From Aliiroseovarius sp. PrR006 (GTDB taxonomy: Bacteria; Pseudomonadota; Alphaproteobacteria; Rhodobacterales; Rhodobacteraceae), in NCBI RefSeq assembly GCF_010500215.1, contig NZ_JAAGOY010000007.1, positions 962,501 through 1,026,500 of the forward strand: a stretch of 64,000 nucleotides of DNA. The letters run 5' to 3'. The notes below the pieces were generated by a model. That model worked only from the letters and a program-made list of their open reading frames with translations. It searched no databases and had not been told where the DNA came from. The translations under genes were made by a program, and so were the position numbers. Positions 46,268 to 63,133 of the stretch are shown here, piece by piece (position 1 is the stretch's first letter; the number at the start of each line of letters is the position of its first letter).

Positions 46268-48250
46268 ATGATTTATCGGCCAGAGATTGATGGCTTGCGA
46301 GCGGTTGCCGTTTTACCGGTCATTTTGTTCCATGCGGGCATTGGCCTGTTTGAAGGTGGCTTTGTTGGCGTCGACGTCTTTTTTGTTATCAGCGGCTACC
46401 TGATCACCTCGATCCTGATCGAAGACATCGTGCGTGGGCGCTTCAGCCTTCTGAAGTTCTATGAACGTCGCGCGCGCCGCATCCTGCCCGCGCTGTTCTT
46501 TGTTGTGGCCTGCACCATTCCCTTCGCGATCCTGTGGATGCTGCCCACACAATTGCGCGATTATGCGCAAAGCCTTGTGGCGGTCAGCCTGTTTTCCTCG
46601 AACTTCCTGTTCTGGATGGAAAGCGGGTATTTCGAGGAAGGCGTGGAGATGAAACCACTCCTCCATACTTGGAGCTTGGCCATCGAAGAGCAGTTTTATG
46701 TGATCTTCCCCGTCTTGCTGTTTACTTTGTGGAAACTGGGCAGGCGCGCGGTGATCTGGATCCTGGCCCTGATCGCGGTGATCAGCCTTGGCCTTACGGA
46801 ATGGGGCTGGCGCACCCACCCTGCCGCCAATTTCTTCCTCGCCCCCGGCCGCGTGTGGGAGCTGTTGGCCGGCTCTTTCGGCGCCTTCGCACTACACCGT
46901 CGCGCTCTGCCCGGAAATGACGCCGCCGCCGCGCTGGGCCTTTTGGCGATCGGGGTTGCGGTCTTTCTGTTTGACAACACGACCCCGTTCCCCAGCCTCT
47001 ATACCTTGCTGCCCGTGGTTGGCGTGCTCTTGATCATCCTGTTCGGGCAGCAGGGAACCTGGGTTGCAGCCCTTCTGTCCACAAAGCCCATCGTAGGGAT
47101 CGGGCTGATCAGCTACAGCGCCTATCTGTGGCACCAGCCTCTGTTCGCCTTCGCCCGCATTCGCAGCCTGACCGAACCCAACCTTGCCCTGATGCTGGGT
47201 CTGGCGGTGGTATCCCTGATCCTTGCCGCCTTCAGCTGGCGCTATGTCGAACAGCCGTTTCGTGCAGGACCAAACACATGGGTGAAATCCCGATCTTCTA
47301 TCTTTGCAACCAGTATTGCTGGACTGGTTCTGATTGCTGGGTTTGGCGCGTGGGGGCATGTGAACAGCGGCTTTCCAGACCGCTTTTCACCCGAAGCGCG
47401 CGCAATTCTGTCGATGCATACAGATCGGATCGACAGAACCTGCCATTTTGATGAGAACCGGTCAAAATTCGTACCGAAACAGGCCTGTTATCACACAGTT
47501 CCTGACGCATCAGGCGAAGTTCTTTTATTGGGGGACAGCCATGTGGCGGCTGTCTGGCAACAAGTGGTCGCGGCCCTGAACGCAAGCGGGCGGAATGTCT
47601 ATGTCGGGTCCTATGGCGGCTGCATCCCGCTGCCCAACATGGAGCACATACATAAGTCTTCCGCCCATGAATGCGCCGAGTTCGTGGACGCAATTCTGGC
47701 TTACGCGGATGAGGTTGGGATTGATACGCTGGTACTGGCTGCACGGTTCCCGGCCTATCTGCATGGTACGCGCTTTGATAATGGTGAAGGTGGGGTGGAG
47801 CATGGAACGCGCATGGATGTACGTGATCTGGGCGCAACACCTCACACCGGACAGTTCGATCTGCTTCGATCTAAATTGGAAGGTCTGGCACAGCGCTTCA
47901 ATCTGGTGTTGGTCGAACCGATCCCCGAGGCTGGGTGGAGCGTGCCCGAATTGATCGCGAAACGCATGCACTTCGCGGGAAACGACGATCAATCTTTGTC
48001 TACAGATTATAGCGTCTATGTCGCACGAACCGAGGCTGTGATCGCTGCGTTTGAAGCGGTTCAGGAGCAGTCACAGAATGTCATGATTGCGCCGATTCAT
48101 GCGGGGTTTTGCGATGTCGCGACAACCCGCTGTGTAAATGCAGATACTACCAATATCCTGTATCTGGACGGTGATCATCCCAGCCCGGCAGGGGCCGCCC
48201 TGATCGCGCCGGACATCGTTGAGGCGGTCGCGTCGCTTCCCCCAAGATAA
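46268..48250 (+). CDS. Acyltransferase-3 / SGNH two-domain O-acyltransferase (OafA/YrhL-like)
   Basis: 660-residue membrane protein. The N-terminal half (about residues 1-350) is an acyltransferase-3 domain with ten or so hydrophobic spans, starting YRPEIDGLRAVAVLPVILFHAG and containing HTWSLAIEEQFYVIFP. The C-terminal half is an SGNH hydrolase domain with GDSH near residue 422 and a final DGDHPSPAGA (Asp/His pair). Such fusions O-acetylate lipopolysaccharide or exopolysaccharide. The neighbouring genes do not reveal the acceptor. It follows secA by 110 bp. Confidence 0.9.
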   Translation: MIYRPEIDGLRAVAVLPVILFHAGIGLFEGGFVGVDVFFVISGYLITSILIEDIVRGRFSLLKFYERRARRILPALFFVVACTIPFAILWMLPTQLRDYAQSLVAVSLFSSNFLFWMESGYFEEGVEMKPLLHTWSLAIEEQFYVIFPVLLFTLWKLGRRAVIWILALIAVISLGLTEWGWRTHPAANFFLAPGRVWELLAGSFGAFALHRRALPGNDAAAALGLLAIGVAVFLFDNTTPFPSLYTLLPVVGVLLIILFGQQGTWVAALLSTKPIVGIGLISYSAYLWHQPLFAFARIRSLTEPNLALMLGLAVVSLILAAFSWRYVEQPFRAGPNTWVKSRSSIFATSIAGLVLIAGFGAWGHVNSGFPDRFSPEARAILSMHTDRIDRTCHFDENRSKFVPKQACYHTVPDASGEVLLLGDSHVAAVWQQVVAALNASGRNVYVGSYGGCIPLPNMEHIHKSSAHECAEFVDAILAYADEVGIDTLVLAARFPAYLHGTRFDNGEGGVEHGTRMDVRDLGATPHTGQFDLLRSKLEGLAQRFNLVLVEPIPEAGWSVPELIAKRMHFAGNDDQSLSTDYSVYVARTEAVIAAFEAVQEQSQNVMIAPIHAGFCDVATTRCVNADTTNILYLDGDHPSPAGAALIAPDIVEAVASLPPR

Positions 48251-54172: not shown

Positions 54173-54994
54173 TTACTGACGCGCCGCCCAGCTGGCGGAA
54201 ACATGTCGACGGGAATAGCTTTCGCCCATCAAGCCCACAAGGACAATCACAAGAGAGCATATCAACGGATACATCCAGTTGGTGTAGTGCGGATTGTAGT
54301 TCACAAACGTGAACCCGCGCGTCTGGTCGACGATATGGAACAGAGGGTTCCAGTTGAACATTGAAATCATGTAGAACGGAAGCGCGTTGGCCACGAACAT
54401 CTTGCCCGACGCGATCATGTTTGCGCGCATATAAACCGTTTTTGCAATGTTGGTGAACTGCGGGAACCACGGTTTCAGAGCAAGAAAAACCACACCAATC
54501 GACACACCGTTGAACCACGCCAACAGGAGCATAAGAACTGCTCCGACCGGCTGGTCAATCGTGATGGGTGTGAAGCCCATGTGATAGACTGCCAGAACAA
54601 GGCTGATCGTCAGAATTTGAAGGTAGAGCGACCCTAAAGCTGACGAGACCATGGCCACAAACGTATTCATTGGCGTGTGTTGCATCATCGGGTCTGTCGG
54701 GCTGGATGCTCCGGCCACGGCGCTCATCGCTTTGATGTTCGTAATGAAAACGAAGATGCCCGACAGAAGATACAGCAGGAAATCGCCCCTCAAAGCCGCC
54801 CCGCGCAGTCCGAGTACCGAGAACATAAGATAAAAAACAGCCAACATGATCATTATCTGAATCATGTTGATCGCAATCGCCATAAAGGCATTTGTATGCG
54901 TACTGCGAACGTTGTGCGCGGTCATGTGGAAGATGACCTCGAGCATGGAAAACGCTGCCGACAGCCGTGAATATCTCTTCTTTGCCTCGAACAT
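54173..54994 (-). CDS. ABC-2 type polysaccharide export permease (KpsM/Wzm-like)
   Basis: 273-residue integral membrane protein with about six hydrophobic spans, for example MIQIMIMLAVFYLMFSVLGL and VLMLLLAWFNGVSIGVVFLAL. It is of the ABC-2 permease type used to export capsule or O-antigen polysaccharide. It carries no ATP-binding domain, and no ATPase gene is adjacent or elsewhere in this window. The last 15 residues end RRHVSASWAARQ. It diverges from cysQ and sits at the edge of the glycan gene region. Confidence 0.85.
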   Translation of the reverse strand: MFEAKKRYSRLSAAFSMLEVIFHMTAHNVRSTHTNAFMAIAINMIQIMIMLAVFYLMFSVLGLRGAALRGDFLLYLLSGIFVFITNIKAMSAVAGASSPTDPMMQHTPMNTFVAMVSSALGSLYLQILTISLVLAVYHMGFTPITIDQPVGAVLMLLLAWFNGVSIGVVFLALKPWFPQFTNIAKTVYMRANMIASGKMFVANALPFYMISMFNWNPLFHIVDQTRGFTFVNYNPHYTNWMYPLICSLVIVLVGLMGESYSRRHVSASWAARQ

Positions 54995-55078: not shown

Positions 55079-55135
55079 ATGTTATCAACAAGGCCGTATC
55101 TGGCCGTATTTAAGGAGTTCCGTCTTGGATTTTGA
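55079..55135 (+). other. 18-codon upstream open frame overlapping the cysQ start
   Basis: ATG 55079, preceded by AAGGGGGGTGC, encodes MLSTRPYLAVFKEFRLGF and stops at TGA 55133-55135, eleven bases inside cysQ. It carries its own strong ribosome-site-like tract and contains the near-direct repeat GGCCGTATCT/GGCCGTATTT. It could be a leader peptide coupling cysQ translation, or chance. Confidence 0.35.
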
Positions 55136-55922
55136 GCGTCTGGAAACTGTTATGCGCACGCTGGCCTTGGAAGCGGGTGACGTGATCATGGAGATCTACA
55201 ACTCGGACGATTTCGATGTGCGCGCCAAGTCGGACGACAGCCCCGTAACGGCGGCTGATGAAGCTGCAGATGCCCTGATTTCAGCCGGTTTGCGTGCGGC
55301 CTTCCCGGATGTGTTGTTGGTGACTGAAGAACAAGCCGACAGCCACAGCGAACAGGCCAGCGAATTCCTGATCGTGGACCCTCTGGACGGCACGAAAGAG
55401 TTCATTCACCGCCGCGGCGATTTCACCGTAAACATCGCTTATGTCAAAGACGGAAGCCCTGTACGTGGCGTGGTCTACGCCCCCGCCAAGGGCCGCATGT
55501 TCTTCACCCGCGCGGGTGGCGAAAGCGTGGAGGAGCAAGGTCCGTTCGCAAAAGACACCGTGGGCGTGTTGTCGCCGATTAACGTCTCGACACCGGACAA
55601 TGACGCTCTGTTCATCGTCGCTTCGAAATCGCACCGCGATCAGGCGACCGAGGATTACATCAACAAGTACAGTGTGAAAGACAGTAAATCGGCGGGTAGC
55701 TCTTTGAAATTCTGTCTTGTCGCCACCGGCGAGGCGGATCTGTATCCCCGCGTGGGCCGCACGATGGAATGGGACACAGCTGCCGGACACGCCGTTCTGA
55801 AAGGTGCGGGTGGTGATGTGGTTCGGTTCGACGATCATACACCGCTGACCTATGGCAAACCGATCTATGAGAACCCGTTCTTCATCGCCTACGCGCCGGG
55901 TGTCGACCTGAAGAAAGCCTGA
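55125..55922 (+). CDS. cysQ: 3'(2'),5'-bisphosphate nucleotidase CysQ
   Basis: 265-residue inositol-monophosphatase-fold enzyme that hydrolyses PAP (3'-phosphoadenosine 5'-phosphate) to AMP, preventing toxic build-up from sulfotransferases and sulfate assimilation. The metal-binding motif DPLDGTKEF is at residues 85-93, and WDTAAGHAVLKGAGG is the second conserved motif. The start is TTG 55125 with AAGGAG upstream. It lies 7 bp before kdsB, and a sulfotransferase gene lies 6 kb downstream. Confidence 0.94.
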   Translation: MDFERLETVMRTLALEAGDVIMEIYNSDDFDVRAKSDDSPVTAADEAADALISAGLRAAFPDVLLVTEEQADSHSEQASEFLIVDPLDGTKEFIHRRGDFTVNIAYVKDGSPVRGVVYAPAKGRMFFTRAGGESVEEQGPFAKDTVGVLSPINVSTPDNDALFIVASKSHRDQATEDYINKYSVKDSKSAGSSLKFCLVATGEADLYPRVGRTMEWDTAAGHAVLKGAGGDVVRFDDHTPLTYGKPIYENPFFIAYAPGVDLKKA

Positions 55923-55928
55923 CCCCGC

Positions 55929-56732
55929 ATGGCGACGCTGATTGTCATCCCGGCGCGCTATGCCTCGACCCGATATCCGGGCAAGGCGCTTGCGCCGCTG
56001 CGGGGGGCAACCGGGCAAAATAAGACCCTAATCCACCGCAGTTGGGAGGCCGCAAAAGCCGTGTGCGGCGTGGATCGGGTTGTGGTGGCCACGGATGATG
56101 ACCGCATCCGGGACGAGGCGGAAGGCTTTGGGGCCGAGGTCGTGATGACCTCGGACACCTGCGAAAACGGGACCGAGCGCTGCGCCGAAGCCCTGACCGC
56201 GCTGGGCGAAGATTTCGATGTCATCGTCAATTTGCAGGGCGATGCCCCCCTGACGCCTCCATGGTTCGTGGAAGAGCTGGTTGCTGCGCTGGAAACCCAC
56301 CCGACTGCCGAGGTGGCAACGCCGGTTCTACGCTGCGATGGCCGTGCGCTGAACGGCTTTCTGGAAGACCGCAAGGCGGGACGTGTCGGCGGGACGACGG
56401 CGGTGTTCGGGGCGGAAGGGCACGCGCTCTATTTTTCGAAAGAGGTGATCCCGTATACGCAGGGCAATGGCTGGTCCGATCATGACCAGACGCCGGTGTT
56501 TCACCATGTCGGCGTCTATGCCTACCGCCCGTCAGCACTTGCCGCTTATCCGCTGTGGTCGGCGGGGCCATTGGAGCAGCTGGAAGGGTTGGAGCAGCTG
56601 CGCTTTCTAGAGCGCGAGAAACCCCTTCAGTGTGTTGAAGTCGACGCCCGTTCCCGCCAGTTCTGGGAGCTGAACAACCCCGAAGATGTCCCACGGATCG
56701 AGGCCATTTTGCAGGAGCTTGGCATTGCGTAA
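55929..56732 (+). CDS. kdsB: 3-deoxy-manno-octulosonate cytidylyltransferase KdsB
   Basis: 267-residue CMP-Kdo synthetase activating Kdo for lipopolysaccharide or capsule. It begins LIVIPARYASTRYPGKAL with the nucleotide-binding loop, followed by the QGDAPLTPPWFVEELV and HHVGVYAYRP segments. It lies 7 bp after cysQ, suggesting one transcript. It is transcribed in the same direction as galU, which follows after a 200-bp spacer. Confidence 0.95.
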   Translation: MATLIVIPARYASTRYPGKALAPLRGATGQNKTLIHRSWEAAKAVCGVDRVVVATDDDRIRDEAEGFGAEVVMTSDTCENGTERCAEALTALGEDFDVIVNLQGDAPLTPPWFVEELVAALETHPTAEVATPVLRCDGRALNGFLEDRKAGRVGGTTAVFGAEGHALYFSKEVIPYTQGNGWSDHDQTPVFHHVGVYAYRPSALAAYPLWSAGPLEQLEGLEQLRFLEREKPLQCVEVDARSRQFWELNNPEDVPRIEAILQELGIA

Positions 56733-56934
56733 TGCTTCGACCGCGCTGTGATTTTGGAATAGATTCGAGAAAAAATCCGCCTTGCTGTAAAATAGTTGGA
56801 GAAAGACATGATGTTTTCAAATTTATAAATTAGAGAATGAACAAGTAAGCGTAACTTTGACGTGATGCCGTCGACCACTCACCGGACGGTGGAAACTCGA
56901 AGAATTTACCGCGATTAGTACAAAGGTGAAGTTT
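56733..56934. promoter_or_regulatory. kdsB-galU intergenic region
   Basis: A 202-bp AT-rich spacer with no gene I can support. It contains several A/T runs (for example around 56772-56790 and 56816-56836). I could not assign a clear sigma-70 promoter, though transcription of galU and the sulfated-glycan genes probably starts here. Confidence 0.4.
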
Positions 56935-57828
56935 ATGCAGCGTAAGGTTACCAAAGCGGTTTTTCCCGTGGCTGGACTGGGAACCCGTTTCCTTCCCGCG
57001 ACGAAATCCATCCCGAAAGAGATCATGACGCTGGTTGACCGGCCCTTGATCCAATACGCTATTGACGAAGCCCGCGCTGCTGGCATCAAGGAGTTCATTT
57101 TTGTGACCTCGCGCGGCAAAGGCGCGCTGGAAGATTATTTCGACAACGCGCCCGTGCTGGAGCGCGAGCTGCGCAAGAAGGGCAAGGACCAGCTTCTTGA
57201 GATCCTGAAAGACACCAATATGAAATCTGGTGCTATCGCCTATATGCGCCAGCACAAGGCGCTGGGGCTGGGCCACGCGGTCTGGTGTGCCCGTCGCCTG
57301 ATCGCGGACGAACCCTTCGCCGTGATCCTGCCCGATGACGTGATTGCTGCCGAAAAGCCCTGCTTGCAGCAGATGGTCGAGGCTTATGAAAACACCGGCG
57401 GCTGCATGGTTGCCGCGATGGAAGTCCCGCCTGAAAAGGCCAGCGCTTATGGTGTGCTGGACGTGAAAGAGGACATGGGCGATCTGGTATCGACCCGCGG
57501 CATGGTCGAGAAACCCTCGATTGACGAAGCCCCGTCGAACCTTGCCGTGATTGGCCGCTACATCCTGACCCCGGATGTTCTGAAAAGTTTGGACCGCAAG
57601 CAAACCGGTGCCGGTGGGGAAATTCAGCTGACCGATGCCATCGCAAACGAACTGGAACAGGGACGTGATGTGTTTGGCTATCGCTTCCGCGGCCAACGCT
57701 TCGATTGTGGCTCGAAGGCCGGGTTCCTGCAGGCCACCGTGGCCTTCGGCATGGCCCGAGAAGAACTGCGGGACGAGTTTATCGGCTATCTGCACGATCT
57801 CGTGGCCCAGAACAAAGCTGCCGAGTAA
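56935..57828 (+). CDS. galU: UTP-glucose-1-phosphate uridylyltransferase
   Basis: 297-residue enzyme making UDP-glucose. It has the nucleotide-binding motif FPVAGLGTRFLPATKSIPKE at the N-terminus, followed by RGKGALEDYFD and GAIAYMRQHKALGLGHAVWCA. ATG 56935 has AAGG 8 nt upstream. A GTG nine bases earlier is possible. It supplies activated sugar to the glycosyltransferases directly downstream, starting six bases after its stop, and uses galE elsewhere for the UDP-galactose branch. Confidence 0.96.
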   Translation: MQRKVTKAVFPVAGLGTRFLPATKSIPKEIMTLVDRPLIQYAIDEARAAGIKEFIFVTSRGKGALEDYFDNAPVLERELRKKGKDQLLEILKDTNMKSGAIAYMRQHKALGLGHAVWCARRLIADEPFAVILPDDVIAAEKPCLQQMVEAYENTGGCMVAAMEVPPEKASAYGVLDVKEDMGDLVSTRGMVEKPSIDEAPSNLAVIGRYILTPDVLKSLDRKQTGAGGEIQLTDAIANELEQGRDVFGYRFRGQRFDCGSKAGFLQATVAFGMAREELRDEFIGYLHDLVAQNKAAE

Positions 57829-57834
57829 TCCTGC

Positions 57835-58869
57835 GTGACGAGGGGCGTGTCCGGTCTGATTTCGCGGTATCGGATGCGTTTGAAACGTCGACGTCTTTTG
57901 TGGCGGTCGATCCGGTCTCGGCGGCAGCTGACCCCAGTTAGTGACCATACGAACCTGATCCAGAAAGATCAGGTTCTGGCCTTTGTCGTGCTGCGTAACG
58001 AAATGCAGCGCCTGCCCTTCTTTCTGTCCCATTATCGCCGACTTGGGGTTGGGCACTTCCTGATTGTGGCGAATGATTGCACGGATGGCAGCGCCGAGTA
58101 TCTGACCCAGCAGCCCGATGTATCCCTGTGGAGCACCGATGCCAGTTACAAATCCGCGCGGTTCGGGGTGGATTGGCTGACGTGGCTGCAGTTTCGCTAT
58201 GGGCACGGGCATTGGTGCCTGACAGTCGATGTAGACGAGTTGTTGATCTATCCGCATCACGACAAACGCCCCCTGCCCGCTCTGGCGCAGAGGCTCGAGG
58301 CAAGGGGTGCACAGGCGCTGGGTGCGTTGATGCTGGACCTCTATTCCAAAGGGCCGCTGGGTGCGGCAGACGCAGTGGACGACCCCATCGCGGCGCTGCC
58401 GTGGTTCGATGATGGCCCCTATCGCGCGGTTCGGCAGGCGCCGATGCAAAATCTATGGCTTCAGGGTGGCGCGCGTGAACGGGTGTTCTTTCCAAAGAAC
58501 CCAACACGTGGCCCGACCCTGAACAAGCTGCCCTTGGTCAAGTGGTCGCGCCGCTATGCTTATGCAAACTCGACCCATTCGATCCTGCCGCCGCGTTTGA
58601 ACCACGAATGGGATGGCCCGCCCGCAGTCAACGGCGCAGACACCCTGTCTGGCGTTCTGCTTCATACCAAGTTTTTGCCCGGCGTTCTGGAACGGTCTGG
58701 GGAAGAAAAGTCCCGGCGCGAGCATTTCGGGCAGCCTGATCAGTTTGACGCCTACTACGACGCTATCGGAGATGCGCCCGATCTGTGGCACCCCGATGCG
58801 TGCCGTTTCGAAGACTGGCAGCAGCTGACCCGACTGGGTTTGATGTCGACAGGAGGCTGGACCGACTAA
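57835..58869 (+). CDS. Glycosyltransferase family 2-type protein (paralog 1)
   Basis: 344-residue cytoplasmic glycosyltransferase of the GT2/92-like family (Glyco_tranf_2_4). LRNEMQRLPFFLSHYRRLGVGHFLIVANDCTDGS contains the substrate-binding start, and the metal-binding DxD is Asp132/Asp134 in VDVDELL. The N-terminus is very basic (RMRLKRRRLLWRSIRSRR). The C-terminal part keeps KLPLVKWSRRYAYANSTHSI. GTG at 57847 is an equally possible start and aligns with the downstream paralog. No membrane helix is evident. Confidence 0.85.
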   Translation: MTRGVSGLISRYRMRLKRRRLLWRSIRSRRQLTPVSDHTNLIQKDQVLAFVVLRNEMQRLPFFLSHYRRLGVGHFLIVANDCTDGSAEYLTQQPDVSLWSTDASYKSARFGVDWLTWLQFRYGHGHWCLTVDVDELLIYPHHDKRPLPALAQRLEARGAQALGALMLDLYSKGPLGAADAVDDPIAALPWFDDGPYRAVRQAPMQNLWLQGGARERVFFPKNPTRGPTLNKLPLVKWSRRYAYANSTHSILPPRLNHEWDGPPAVNGADTLSGVLLHTKFLPGVLERSGEEKSRREHFGQPDQFDAYYDAIGDAPDLWHPDACRFEDWQQLTRLGLMSTGGWTD

Positions 58870-59008
58870 CACCATCGCGTGAAGGGATTTGCGCGATGTA
58901 TGGAAGACGTTTAGAAATTAGATATAAAAGCAAAGGTGGACCGCGCTTTGTGCCAGCCACGGGCAGAAGCGCGCCACCTGATACAGGCATTAACGGACAG
59001 GACAAGAT

Positions 59009-60019
59009 TTGGGCGCTTTGACGTCATATCGCCTTAGGCTCAAGCGCAAGCGCCACCTGATCCGTGGGTTTCGCAAACGGCACGAGCTGTCGGCGGTGAA
59101 GAACCGCACCGCACAGATTGCGCCCGCAGACATCCTTGTCTTCACAACCCTGCGCAACGAGCTGGTCCGCCTGCCCTATTTCCTGAAATATTACAGAGAC
59201 TTGGGTGTTAATCACTTTCTGATCGTGGATAACGGCTCGGATGATGGGTCGCGGGAATATCTGGCGCAGCAGGATGATGTGTCGCTGTGGACCACGCAGG
59301 CCAGCTATAAGCGTGCGAAGTTTGGCGTGGACTGGTTGAACTGGCTGCAGCGCAAGTACGGGCATGACCACTGGTGCCTGACCGTCGATACGGACGAGTT
59401 TTTTGTCTATCCGTTCTGCGACACGCGCCCCTTGCGCGCCCTGACCGATTGGCTGGACGCAAGCGAGATCAGAAGCTTCGGCGCGATGCTGATGGATATG
59501 TATCCCGAAGGACCGATTGGGGCCGAACCCTATCAGGCCGGTCAGAACCCGCTTGAGATCACGCGCTGGTTCGACAGCGGCAACTACACCATTCGCAAGA
59601 ATAGCCAGTTCCGGAACCTATGGATCCAAGGCGGCGTGCGCGCCCGCGTCTTCTTTGACGACAACCCAGAACGCGCCCCGGCCCTGAACAAGATCCCCTT
59701 GGTGAAATGGCGGCGGTCCTATGCCTATGTCAGCTCGACCCACACGCTTTTACCGCGCGGTTTGAACCTTGTTTACGACGCATCCGGGGGCGAGAAAGCC
59801 TCGGGCTGCTTGCTGCACGCCAAGTTTCTTGACACGTTCGAGGCAAAGTCGAAGGAAGAGCTGCAACGCCGCCAGCACTATGCCAACAGCCACGAATATC
59901 GCGCCTATAACACGCGAATGGCGGATGATCCGGTCCTTTGGTGTGAGTGGAGCGAAGAATACATCAACTGGCGACAGCTTGAGGTATTGGGCCTGATGTC
60001 TAAGGGGAACTGGGCATGA
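59009..60019 (+). CDS. Glycosyltransferase family 2-type protein (paralog 2)
   Basis: 336-residue paralog of the preceding gene. TLRNELVRLPYFLKYYRDLGVNHFLIVDNGSDDGS and the DxD pair Asp127/Asp129 in VDTDEFF are intact, as is WIQGGVRARVFFDDNPERAPALNKIPLVKWRRSYAYVSSTHTL. The start is TTG 59009. A 139-bp spacer separates it from paralog 1, suggesting tandem duplication with diversification rather than redundancy. It overlaps the next gene by 4 bp. Confidence 0.85.
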   Translation: MGALTSYRLRLKRKRHLIRGFRKRHELSAVKNRTAQIAPADILVFTTLRNELVRLPYFLKYYRDLGVNHFLIVDNGSDDGSREYLAQQDDVSLWTTQASYKRAKFGVDWLNWLQRKYGHDHWCLTVDTDEFFVYPFCDTRPLRALTDWLDASEIRSFGAMLMDMYPEGPIGAEPYQAGQNPLEITRWFDSGNYTIRKNSQFRNLWIQGGVRARVFFDDNPERAPALNKIPLVKWRRSYAYVSSTHTLLPRGLNLVYDASGGEKASGCLLHAKFLDTFEAKSKEELQRRQHYANSHEYRAYNTRMADDPVLWCEWSEEYINWRQLEVLGLMSKGNWA

Positions 60020-61716
60020 GCTTGGGCGTCGTCATGATCGTGCACGATGCTCTGCACCGCGCGACCCAACTGGCGCGCCATTGGTCCGATCACGGCTGCC
60101 CCGTGGTGCTGCATGTCGACCAACGCGTAGACCGCGACACCTATGACCGCTTCGTTAAAAGCTTGGCGGATAGGGACAATGTGCTGTTCTGCGATCGGCA
60201 CCGTTGCGAGTGGGGGACTTGGTCGCTTGTGGCCGCTAGTCAAGCCGCGGCCGAGCTGATGTTGGAACGGTTCCCCGATGTGCAGCACGTGCTTTTGGCC
60301 TCGGGCAGCTGTCTGCCTCTGCGTCCGGTGGCCGAGCTGACGGATTACCTGCGTGACCGGCCCACCACCGATTTCATCGAAAGCGTCACGACCGAGGATG
60401 TCCCCTGGGCCATCGGCGGATTGAACACCGAACGCTTCACGCTGCGGTTTCCGTTCTCGTGGAAGCGCCGGCGTCGTCTGTTTGATGGCTATGTGCGGTT
60501 TCAGCGCCGGGTTGGGTATAAGCGCCGCATTCCATTGGGGATCTCGCCGCATCTGGGCAGTCAGTGGTGGTGCCTGACGCGGCACACGCTGTTGGCCATC
60601 CTGAACGATCCACGGCGTTCGGTGAATGATGCCTATTTCCGCCGGGTCTGGATCCCGGATGAAAGCTATTATCAGACCCTATCCCGCCAGCATTCGAACA
60701 AAATCGAAAGCCGCTCCCTGACCCTGTCGAAGTTTGACTATCAGGGAAAACCGCATGTGTTCTATGATGATCACCTGCAGCTTCTCCGGCGTTCGGACTG
60801 CTTTTTGGCGCGGAAAATCTGGCCCCATGCGGATCGGCTTTACGACAGCTTCCTGTCGGACGCGCCCAGTTTTAGCGCTGGGGCCGAGCCCAACCCCGGC
60901 GAGATCGACCGAATCTTCGCCAAGGCGGTTGATCGCCGCACCAAGGGGCGGCCCGGTCTGTTGATGCAAAGCCGTTTTCCGCACCAGCGCTGGGGCAACA
61001 GGGTGACGGCAGAACCCTATGTCGTGTTGCAGGGCTTCACCGAGATGTTCCGTGGCTTCGAGCCTTGGCTGTCCAGCTTTGGCAAAGTGCGGGTGCATGG
61101 GCATCTGTTTGCGCCCGATAGCGCGCATTTTGCAGGTGGTGGGGCCGAGTATTTCGGGGCGCTGTCGTCCTCGGCGGCGTTGCGTGACTATGATAGCACG
61201 GCGTTTTTGACCAACCTGATCTGGAACACGCGGGGGGATCGGCAGTGTTTCCAGTTCGGCCCGGCAGACACGCAGGACATCACGTGGAACATCGCGCGCG
61301 ACGCCAATGCGCGGATCCATGTCATTTCGGGGGCGTGGGCGGTGCCGCTTTTCCTGTCCGAAGGCCGATTTGCCGACATTCGCCGCACGGCTGCGCGCCT
61401 GCAAAAGACGGAAAGCGCGTTTCTAAGCGTCCTTCGGTCTGATCACTGCCGCGCGCGCGTCAAAATCCAGACCCTGTCCAACTTTGTCCGAAACCCGATC
61501 GAACCGCTACAGGATGTTGTGGATCAGTTGGCCGCCCGCGACCGCCCCAAGCTGACTGCCCCGCCCGAGATGGTGCATCTGGGCGGGTTCGGAGAGTTTT
61601 TGCAAAATCTGAAGAACCAGGGGATGCATCTGCATCTTGCGGGTGATTTTCCAACCGACTATGCGCCCGAGCCCCCTCAGGCCGAGCGCGCCACGCCCTA
61701 TTTGGTGACTAAGTAA
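60016..61716 (+). CDS. GT14-like (core-2/I-branching type) glycosyltransferase with DUF5928 C-terminus
   Basis: 566-residue protein. The N-terminal 290 residues resemble the GT14 beta-1,6-N-acetylglucosaminyltransferase (Branch) fold: CPVVLHVDQRVDRDTYDRFVKSL, VLLASGSCLPLRPV (counterpart of the usual LSGQDYPL) and HLGSQWWCLTRHTLLAIL. The C-terminal half (about 300-566) is the DUF5928 region of Rhodobacterales with WGNRVTAEPYVVLQGFTEMF. Sugar donor and acceptor are unknown. It is coupled to the preceding GT by ATGA and to the sulfotransferase by one base. Confidence 0.84.
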   Translation: MSLGVVMIVHDALHRATQLARHWSDHGCPVVLHVDQRVDRDTYDRFVKSLADRDNVLFCDRHRCEWGTWSLVAASQAAAELMLERFPDVQHVLLASGSCLPLRPVAELTDYLRDRPTTDFIESVTTEDVPWAIGGLNTERFTLRFPFSWKRRRRLFDGYVRFQRRVGYKRRIPLGISPHLGSQWWCLTRHTLLAILNDPRRSVNDAYFRRVWIPDESYYQTLSRQHSNKIESRSLTLSKFDYQGKPHVFYDDHLQLLRRSDCFLARKIWPHADRLYDSFLSDAPSFSAGAEPNPGEIDRIFAKAVDRRTKGRPGLLMQSRFPHQRWGNRVTAEPYVVLQGFTEMFRGFEPWLSSFGKVRVHGHLFAPDSAHFAGGGAEYFGALSSSAALRDYDSTAFLTNLIWNTRGDRQCFQFGPADTQDITWNIARDANARIHVISGAWAVPLFLSEGRFADIRRTAARLQKTESAFLSVLRSDHCRARVKIQTLSNFVRNPIEPLQDVVDQLAARDRPKLTAPPEMVHLGGFGEFLQNLKNQGMHLHLAGDFPTDYAPEPPQAERATPYLVTK

Positions 61717-61717
61717 T

Positions 61718-63133
61718 ATGACCAAGAAATTCGACTGTTTCATCATCCTCGCCGAGATGCGCACGGGGTCCAACTTTCTGGAAAGCAATCTGGATCAGTT
61801 CGACGGGATCCAATGCTATGGCGAGGCGTTCAACCCCTATTTCATGGTGAAGCCCGATCTGGAAGAGCTGTTCGGTGTCACCGTAAACCAGCGGGACAAA
61901 AACCCGGTGAGGCTGCTGGAGCAGATGAAAGCGGGCACTGACGGCATTCCCGGTTTCCGGTTCTTCCACGACCACGACATGCGCATTTTCGAGCACGTCA
62001 TCGACGACCCGCGCTGCGCCAAGGTGGTCCTGACCCGCAATCAGGTGGAAAGCTATGTCAGCCGCCGAATTGCCTGGGCCACGCAGCAATGGGCGCTGAC
62101 CAACGGCAAGGATGCCAAGAAGTTCCGCGTGAGGTTTGATTCAAGCGAGTTCGAGAAATTCTTCTATGAATACAAGGCTTTCCAGCTAAATATCAAAGGT
62201 CGACTGCAGAAGACCGGCCAGACGGCGTTCTATATCGACTACGAAGACACGCAAAATATCGATGTTGTGAATGGGCTGGGCAAGTTTCTGGGGGCCGAGC
62301 ACGAGATCTCCAAGTTTTCGGGCAAGTACAAAAAGCAGAACCCCGAAACACTGGCCGACAAGGTCCGCAACATTGATGAGCTTGTCGAGACGGTCCGCAA
62401 CATCGACTTGTTCGACCTAGGTAAAGTGCCAAACTTCGAACCTGCGCGTGCGCCTGCCGTGCCGACCTATATCACCGCCGAAAATGCACCGCTGATGTTC
62501 CTACCGATCAAGGGCGGTCCGGTGGAGCGTGTGGTAGCCTGGATGGAAGGGTTCGGCGCGCTGTCCTCGGAGTTTAACCAGAAATCGCTGCGCCAGTGGA
62601 AGAACCGCAACAAAGGGCACCGCACCTTCACCGTGCTGCGCCACCCGGTTGCGCGCCTGCACGCCGCGTTCTGCACGCATTTCCTGCAAGATGGTCCCAA
62701 GACCTATTGGGACATCAAGAATGCCCTGCGCGAGAACTATGATGTTCCCCTGCCCGAGCATCTGCCCGATGACAGCTGGGATGAAGCCACCCATCGCACG
62801 GCATTCATCGCTTTCGCAGATTTCGTGCGGCGCAATCTTGCGGGTCAAACCGGGCTTCGTGTCGATGCGGTTTGGGCCACGCAATCCGCTGTAATAAAAG
62901 GGTTTTCAGAGTTCCAGTTGCCTGACCGTATTCTTCGAGAAGACGAGCTTGAGGACGGGCTGGCGGCGCTTGCGCATGACGTGGATCTTGGTGCGCCCAA
63001 ACCTCCCGCGCAACAAGATGATGCGCCGTTCACGCTGGCTCAGATCTATGATGAACGGGTCGAGGCCGCCGTGAAGGCGGCCTATCAGCGCGATTATATG
63101 ATGTTCGGCTTCAGGCCGTGGGGGAAGTCCTGA
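61718..63133 (+). CDS. Two-domain sulfotransferase (NodH-like)
   Basis: 471-residue protein that appears to contain two sulfotransferase-like domains. The first has a PAPS-binding loop RTGSN at residues 15-19, the beta-strand VVLTRNQVESYVS with Arg107 and Ser113 (3'-phosphate binding), and FYIDYEDTQNIDVV. The second (from about 255) has LPIKGGP near residue 265, resembling a degenerate PAPS loop, and VLRHPVARLHAAFCTHFL (Arg308, Pro310), a second 3'-phosphate-binding type strand. Database names for its relatives are often nodulation protein NodH. It follows the DUF5928 gene by one base. Confidence 0.8.
   Translation: MTKKFDCFIILAEMRTGSNFLESNLDQFDGIQCYGEAFNPYFMVKPDLEELFGVTVNQRDKNPVRLLEQMKAGTDGIPGFRFFHDHDMRIFEHVIDDPRCAKVVLTRNQVESYVSRRIAWATQQWALTNGKDAKKFRVRFDSSEFEKFFYEYKAFQLNIKGRLQKTGQTAFYIDYEDTQNIDVVNGLGKFLGAEHEISKFSGKYKKQNPETLADKVRNIDELVETVRNIDLFDLGKVPNFEPARAPAVPTYITAENAPLMFLPIKGGPVERVVAWMEGFGALSSEFNQKSLRQWKNRNKGHRTFTVLRHPVARLHAAFCTHFLQDGPKTYWDIKNALRENYDVPLPEHLPDDSWDEATHRTAFIAFADFVRRNLAGQTGLRVDAVWATQSAVIKGFSEFQLPDRILREDELEDGLAALAHDVDLGAPKPPAQQDDAPFTLAQIYDERVEAAVKAAYQRDYMMFGFRPWGKS

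Follow-up and report, generated by a model that had tools for sequence, protein, structure and literature searches.

A Rhodobacteraceae operon that probably makes a sulfated, exported capsule-type polysaccharide, and two nearly exclusive forms of its middle

Marine sulfated glycans are usually credited to algae. Bacteria make such polymers too: going by the accessible parts of two reports, Vibrio sp. KMM 8419 has a sulfated capsule exported by an ATP-binding cassette (ABC) transporter, together with genes for 3'-phosphoadenosine 5'-phosphosulfate (PAPS) (PMC11641403), and Cobetia marina KMM 1449 has another, for which CysQ is named as the enzyme that removes 3'-phosphoadenosine 5'-phosphate (PAP) (PMC11766843). 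Here we analyze a compact operon in a 64,000-nucleotide window of Aliiroseovarius sp. PrR006 (positions 962501-1026500 of contig NZ_JAAGOY010000007.1, below C7, in a 15-contig, 3.2 Mb assembly). It consists of cysQ, kdsB, galU, two PF13704 glycosyltransferase genes (GTa and GTb), a gene for a glycosyltransferase family 14 (GT14) enzyme fused to DUF5927, and a gene for a PAPS-sulfotransferase-like protein, and it lies divergent from a gene for a KpsM/VexB-like permease. Judged from sequence, this operon probably makes and helps export a sulfated capsule-type polysaccharide, which would leave the cell through an ABC transporter and would probably be primed with 3-deoxy-D-manno-octulosonic acid (Kdo). 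Sulfated ABC-exported capsules as such are already known; what is new here is that the middle of the operon takes two nearly exclusive forms. In the literature searched, whose coverage leaves out most subscription journals, we found no description of the operon, of its spread through the family or of the two cassettes.

The sulfotransferase was matched in 122 of 149 Rhodobacteraceae genomes, evenly drawn with one genus code each: strongly in 121 and weakly in one (G074; G codes denote genomes of relatives, and L codes the loci compared). Some of the strong matches are partial, among them those in G148 (residues 191-469), G133 (227-467) and G056 (9-223). A class-wide draw of 240 genomes contained it in five, comprising three full-length family members (this genome included) and two others with weak, N-terminal matches only. 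The nearest named matches are from Aliiroseovarius spp. at 92-93% identity. Searching the 72,556 plasmid records of PLSDB with the sulfotransferase gave one weak match, so PLSDB plasmids showed no full-length copy of the enzyme.

We then compared 122 relative loci, namely those of the 120 other strong-match genomes and those of G057 and G074, which were added because they carry GT14 without the sulfotransferase. At least 9.5 kb of upstream sequence was available in 61 of these, 59 of them picked by the sulfotransferase, whose presence there is by selection; the remaining 61 were shorter upstream, owing to contig ends or to the stretch taken. Across the 59 loci the divergent permease is present in 55, cysQ in 55, galU in 51, kdsB in 34, and GTb and GT14 in 58 each. 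In L227, L268, L277 and L281 the stretch contains neither permease nor cysQ; those genomes have the permease elsewhere (for L277 some 4 kb past the end of the stretch, on its own contig). Eighty named loci, some truncated where contigs stop, retain the permease in 70 cases and cysQ in 70, in unchanged order. Because the same gene order recurs across genomes of many different genus codes and in these named relatives, the arrangement is more than chance. An initial annotation of this DNA, which proposed a sulfated surface-glycan pathway, had suggested looking for conservation of the neighbourhood across Rhodobacterales; within the family the outcome was strongly positive (permease and cysQ in 55/59, GTb and GT14 in 58/59). 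One locus, L277 (G148:C3:677400-690400), is disrupted: GTb and GT14 are absent, transposase-like open reading frames (ORFs; judged by eye) stand in their place, and the sulfotransferase match is cut on its N-terminal side, covering residues 191-469 only.

Other export and assembly genes follow the sulfotransferase through the 149 genomes. With cut-offs set after the lists had been seen (sulfotransferase E<1e-25, GT14 and KpsE E<1e-70, permease E<1e-40, and E<1e-20 for PF05159, the family of KpsC and KpsS), the 121 sulfotransferase genomes include 118 with GT14, 119 with the permease, 119 with a 562-residue KpsE and all 121 with PF05159. The partner occurs without the sulfotransferase in 3, 5, 8 and 12 genomes, respectively, and both are missing from 25, 23, 20 and 16. 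Fisher p values for this co-occurrence range from 6e-22 to 2e-14 with relatedness ignored, and the genomes without everything may form few clades. The genome also encodes a fusion of ATP sulfurylase and adenosine 5'-phosphosulfate (APS) kinase (1027.7 bits, cut-off 669), so PAPS can be made. Together, the permease, KpsC/KpsS in 121 of 121 genomes and the APS kinase point to an exported capsule-type polymer; with the synteny, they support the sulfated surface glycan proposed at the outset, its sulfate being a prediction.

The middle of the operon is its variable part. In many relatives a GT2-type gene separates kdsB from galU, and a GT4-type gene, frequently accompanied by galE, lies in the interval from galU to GTb. 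Of the loci compared, 110 extend 7 kb or more upstream; 64 of them are of this type A (GT2 and GT4, one PF13704 gene) and 36 of type B, the form found in the window (two or three PF13704 genes, neither GT2 nor GT4); two are mixed (L039, L247) and eight unassigned. On a tree built from cysQ, ptsN and hpf, with 85 genomes labelled by type, a minimum of 21 A/B changes is needed, a count that poor resolution of these short markers would also raise. Shuffling the labels 1000 times gave 24.4 changes on average (range 18 to 29), and 74 shuffles were as low. For 41 of the 85 genomes the closest relative by the same markers is of the opposite type; 38.7 would be expected by chance. Cassette type is thus nearly unlinked to the short-marker phylogeny.

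Single-gene trees were compared as well, each with 200 shuffles. The GTb tree follows type best, with 15 changes against 30.0 and no shuffle as low. Tracking is weak for galU and GT14 (one shuffle as low for each), the permease (3), the sulfotransferase (7) and cysQ (12), and type is hardly or not tracked by kdsB (19), ptsN (35), hpf (59) and galE (88). Both types occur under the titles Aliiroseovarius, Oceaniglobus, Roseobacter and Marinosulfonomonas, several of these being metagenome-assembled or uncultured genomes whose genus labels may be imprecise. Within Aliiroseovarius, type-A locus L116 shares 73-94% identity with type-B L115 over nine constant proteins; type-A L120 is more distant from its congeners (58-90%) than the members of two type-B pairs are from one another (65-94%). 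The weak phylogenetic linkage and the occurrence of both types within single genus names suggest that the middle cassette has been exchanged, with a right border near GTb and a constant sulfation end. We give about even chances to a broader scenario in which one ancestral Rhodobacteraceae sulfated capsule kept fixed ends (permease/cysQ on one side, GTb-GT14-DUF5927-sulfotransferase on the other) while its backbone cassette was repeatedly swapped between genera by recombination, yielding two chemotypes that share their sulfated outer part, with phages or grazers as the likely drivers.

Assembly and export might proceed as follows. KdsA and KdsB would supply CMP-Kdo, from which KpsS and KpsC may build a Kdo primer on lipid, and GalU would supply UDP-glucose. 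GTa of the middle cassette, GTb and GT14-DUF5927 would then build the chain (order and sugars conjectured). The N-terminal domain of the sulfotransferase would move sulfate from PAPS to the glycan while its degenerate C-terminal domain might hold the acceptor, and CysQ would clear the resulting PAP. For export, the window's orphan KpsM-like permease would pair with an unlinked KpsT-KpsE and a VexA/KpsD-like outer-membrane protein, a pairing that we infer from co-occurrence. Family-wide, the middle cassette would swap between its two versions and the GTb-GT14-sulfotransferase end would stay. What the sequences themselves establish is narrower: which genes are present, their synteny and co-occurrence, the conserved motifs and the two cassettes.

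Table 1. Operon genes and the divergent permease gene, in window coordinates, with family-model scores
Feature	Positions	Strand	Evidence or remark
ABC-2 type permease, KpsM/VexB-like	54173-54994	-	divergent from operon, between dnaK and cysQ
cysQ, PAP phosphatase	55125-55922	+	TIGR01331, 259.9 bits (cut-off 228.8)
kdsB, CMP-Kdo synthetase	55929-56732	+	NF003950, 341 (cut-off 234)
galU, UTP-glucose-1-phosphate uridylyltransferase	56926-57828	+	TIGR01099, 332.7 (cut-off 326.8)
GTa, PF13704 glycosyltransferase, type-B middle cassette	57835-58869	+	PF13704, 112.1 bits, E 1.8e-32 (cut-off 27.5)
GTb, constant PF13704 glycosyltransferase	59009-60019	+	PF13704, 118.9 bits, E 1.5e-34 (cut-off 27.5)
GT14 (Branch) fused to DUF5927	60016-61716	+	PF02485, 61.4 (cut-off 23.4); DUF5927/PF19349, 454.1 (cut-off 27)
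PAPS-sulfotransferase-like protein, two domains	61718-63133	+	PF03567, 23.3 (cut-off 22), C-terminal half only

ORF positions and family-model matches confirmed the place, strand and family that the initial annotation gave to seven plus-strand genes (Table 1), with corrections: the extra domain of the GT14 enzyme is DUF5927, not DUF5928. Between cysQ and kdsB lie 6 bases. The tight spacing described from galU to the sulfotransferase holds overall but is broken by 139 bases between GTa and GTb; kdsB and galU are 193 bases apart. The divergent permease was absent from that gene list, yet it is conserved with the operon. On a second model, TIGR00466, kdsB stays under the cut-off (143.4 vs 155.2 bits), and the GTa translation contains a DVDE motif. 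Scans for promoters and terminators returned sites no more numerous than in shuffles, a tRNA scan found none, and five proteins tried against the anti-phage defense models of PADLOC gave no match. About 6 kb before the permease, at 46268-48250, the window encodes a fusion of an AT3 acyltransferase with an SGNH domain; proteins of this type often O-acylate polysaccharides.

The remaining export parts are encoded at two places on contig C4. At C4:770.5-775.2 kb, kpsS and kpsC (the products of both over the cut-off of PF05159; KpsS 226.8 bits on NF050054, cut-off 600) flank a VexA/KpsD-like gene at C4:772181, whose product is over the cut-off of PF02563 (63.3 bits) and under that of the VexA model (E 8e-34). 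Orphan kpsT, kpsE and kdsA are grouped at C4:1068.4-1071.6 kb. The KpsT-type ATPase (C4:1070975-1071616) best matches VexC (107.2 bits, cut-off 313), and KpsE matches TIGR01010 (E 4.5e-57, 193.8 bits, cut-off 437.5). kpsT and kpsE are adjacent in 11 of the 11 best-scoring relatives, and kdsA adjoins them in at least 7 of these 11 short loci. As for the permease in the window, its only NCBIfam matches, to VexB (E 1.2e-10) and to KpsM (E 1.4e-7), score well below the respective cut-offs, and its PF01061 score of 18.2 bits is under the cut-off of 26.9.

These parts could also be read as making a sulfated O-polysaccharide or some other part of the lipopolysaccharide (LPS), with Wzm/Wzt-like use of the permease, rather than a Kdo-primed capsule. 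kdsB and galU serve LPS synthesis as well, and Wzm and KpsM permeases are both of the ABC-2 type. A sulfated O-polysaccharide of Poseidonocella pacifica, from a Rhodobacterales genus, appears as an entry in the reference list of PMC7281560. We nevertheless consider the LPS explanation unlikely: the NCBIfam matches of the permease and the best match of the orphan ATPase, all under cut-off, are to VexB/KpsM and VexC, and KpsC/KpsS-type proteins accompany the sulfotransferase in every one of its 121 genomes. A KpsE-family protein co-occurs as well and a VexA-like protein is present, neither of which Wzm/Wzt systems need.

Several observations weigh against a sulfated, Kdo-primed capsule. KpsC had no NCBIfam match at E 1e-8, the permease and orphan KpsT score far under the cut-offs for KpsM, VexB and VexC, and the exporter genes are split over three places (two on C4, one on C7), unlike those of a classical kps locus. 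kdsA, kdsB and galU are shared with LPS and so are not specific. KpsC/KpsS are present in 12 genomes without the sulfotransferase, and they could serve a capsule-type locus on contig C8 instead or as well, given that this locus has its own KpsM, KpsT and two KpsE. Finally, the operon, cysQ included, is kept in L282 (G057) and L283 (G074), where the sulfotransferase is missing, so cysQ is not tied to the sulfotransferase alone. Because such operon copies exist, sulfation may be a separable last step of the pathway. The C8 locus (L192, C8:98000-117900) is a second capsule-type locus of this genome and also encodes a KpsD-like protein, with its two KpsE flanking KpsT.

The sulfotransferase itself was described initially as a two-domain enzyme; two such domains are indeed present, but intact PAPS motifs are confined to the N-terminal one, and the C-terminal one appears degenerate. 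In 62 of 62 aligned sequences the N-terminal R15-T-G-S-N19, R107 and S115 are invariant; we take RTGSN to be the 5' phosphosulfate loop and R107/S115 to complete the PAPS-binding motifs. The corresponding C-terminal loop is not conserved (position 265 is K in 25 sequences, R in 25 and another residue in 12), while H309, P310 and R313 in that half are invariant and R308 is found in 53/62. A predicted structure (mean predicted local distance difference test score (pLDDT) 87, predicted template modelling score 0.54) matches the sulfotransferase fold of 4gox over residues 4-241 (Z 13.4, root-mean-square deviation (rmsd) 3.5, 204 aligned) and that of Stf0 (Z 13.1), in a comparison that covered essentially these residues and barely 246-471. 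Compared with the PDB, the family profile hits the solved structure of a NodH-type sulfotransferase over residues 7-153 (E 1.7e-10). Foldseek was weaker, with a best E of 4e-4 and 2 of 957 matches at E 0.001 or better. Together these data suggest that the protein likely has one active and one degenerate domain. A recent duplication as the source of the two halves was unsupported by profile comparison (30% probability over 45 columns).

The enzyme might instead decorate a lipid, a small glycoside or a protein glycan and be a mere neighbour of a neutral capsule operon. The top two Foldseek matches, a bacterial sulfotransferase and Stf0 (solved with trehalose), and the operon copies that lack the enzyme (L282, L283) would fit such an acceptor. 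We hold this to be very improbable, since the enzyme is linked to GT14 in 58 of the 59 loci picked by it and carbohydrate sulfotransferases also rank among its best fold matches. A further reading, in which the protein has no sulfotransferase activity and the cluster makes an ordinary capsule without sulfate, would suit the degenerate C-terminal loop, the barely sufficient Pfam score and the sparse Foldseek matches, but is hard to credit given the invariant N-terminal motif residues and the profile match to the NodH-type enzyme.

Returning to the proposed sulfated capsule, GT14-DUF5927 is one of its putative chain-building enzymes. In a predicted model (mean pLDDT 76), residues 1-287 match the core-2 N-acetylglucosaminyltransferase C2GnT-L (Z 26.8, rmsd 2.7, 267 aligned) and human xylosyltransferase 1 (Z 23.9), the fold lists covering residues 1-290 only, and the profile likewise matches xylosyltransferase 1 (E 1.9e-6). 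D215 and E216 are invariant in 48 of 48 sequences and align with the xylosyltransferase PAES; the glutamate of the PDE/PAE motif at the E216 position is presumably catalytic. That DUF5927 might be a hidden sulfotransferase domain found no support in profile comparison (0.3 to 4.3% probability), and the literature searched, with the coverage given above, yielded no paper on DUF5927 or DUF5928. Most of the 128 GT14-matching genomes hold a second GT14 match which, among the matches listed, has about 33-42% identity and mostly spans the first 275-310 residues.

Elsewhere in the genome we noted further sulfur-related genes. The ATP sulfurylase-APS kinase fusion (L102:6431-8506; C4:1081430-1083505) is a single open frame that carries, at its N terminus, a MarR-type domain, which passes TIGR04176, a model of an exopolysaccharide (EPS)-associated regulator (90.5 vs cut-off 88 bits). 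This MarR_EPS-PAPS synthase fusion did not hold up as a wider feature: 10 plasmid records (at least 80% coverage) match only from residue 100-129 onward. PAPS synthases of the same kind are found on plasmids amid polysaccharide genes in Roseobacter denitrificans pTB2 (L284) and Sulfitobacter pontiacus (L285), where a sulfotransferase is the fourth gene after it, and amid transposases on a Paracoccus plasmid (L286). An APS-type CysH could argue that PAPS is made for sulfation only. CysH of this genome has the CC, CxxC and ECGIH cysteines, but the family models give conflicting answers: it passes NF002537 (PAPS reductase) and TIGR00434 (cysH), whereas of two models that it does not pass, TIGR02055 (APS reductase) outscores TIGR02057 (PAPS reductase). 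Three further sulfotransferases are encoded at L103:5050-7209, L104:5273-6196 and L105:4772-5758; one is fused to tetratricopeptide repeats and one lies beside ORFs that by eye resemble respiratory-chain subunits.

If the proposed capsule exists, a sulfated surface polymer would be widespread (121 of 149 sampled genomes) in a family common in the sea, with bearing on the attachment of roseobacters to algae, on phage adsorption and on the sources of marine sulfated glycans. Its coding in a single deletable operon would make the trait testable. The two cassettes would amount to a natural experiment in which export and sulfation are the same and the backbone differs, and both GT14-DUF5927 and the half-degenerate sulfotransferase are enzymes open to direct expression.

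Among described systems, capsule of the same order is known from Rhodobacter capsulatus, where it is the receptor of the gene transfer agent; we set it aside as a candidate for the same locus because the accessible part of its report describes it with rcc01081-86 and wza/wzb/wzc (PMC10218006). The E. coli-type KpsC/KpsS capsules, as far as the accessible part of PMC12220298 describes them, share KpsS/KpsC, a KpsD/VexA-like protein, CMP-Kdo supply and, as candidates in this genome, KpsE, KpsT and a KpsM-like permease; here, by contrast, the parts are dispersed, the permease and ATPase are distantly similar, and a sulfation enzyme belongs to the operon. At the level of single enzymes, the N-terminal domain resembles the NodH-type LPS sulfotransferase (PDB 9vki) and Stf0 by profile and fold, whereas here a second, degenerate sulfotransferase-like domain follows; core-2 GlcNAc-transferase and human xylosyltransferase 1 share the fold of residues 1-287, whereas the present GT14 enzyme is bacterial and has DUF5927 appended. 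The sulfated capsules of our opening are close as well. According to the parts of their reports available, Cobetia marina KMM 1449 likewise has kpsSC, a kps exporter and PAPS/sulfotransferase genes, but in a single cluster, some 70 genes in size, that includes a wcb operon, is assigned to group III and has other sugar genes (PMC11766843), and Vibrio sp. KMM 8419 has kpsT, kpsD, kpsM, kpsE, kpsS, PAPS genes and sulfotransferases tied to its capsule, but in a single 80-gene cluster in which kpsC is described as absent (PMC11641403). In comparison with the Vibrio cluster, the Aliiroseovarius operon is compact, its putative exporter lies in three places, its PAPS-making genes lie outside it, and it includes GT14-DUF5927.

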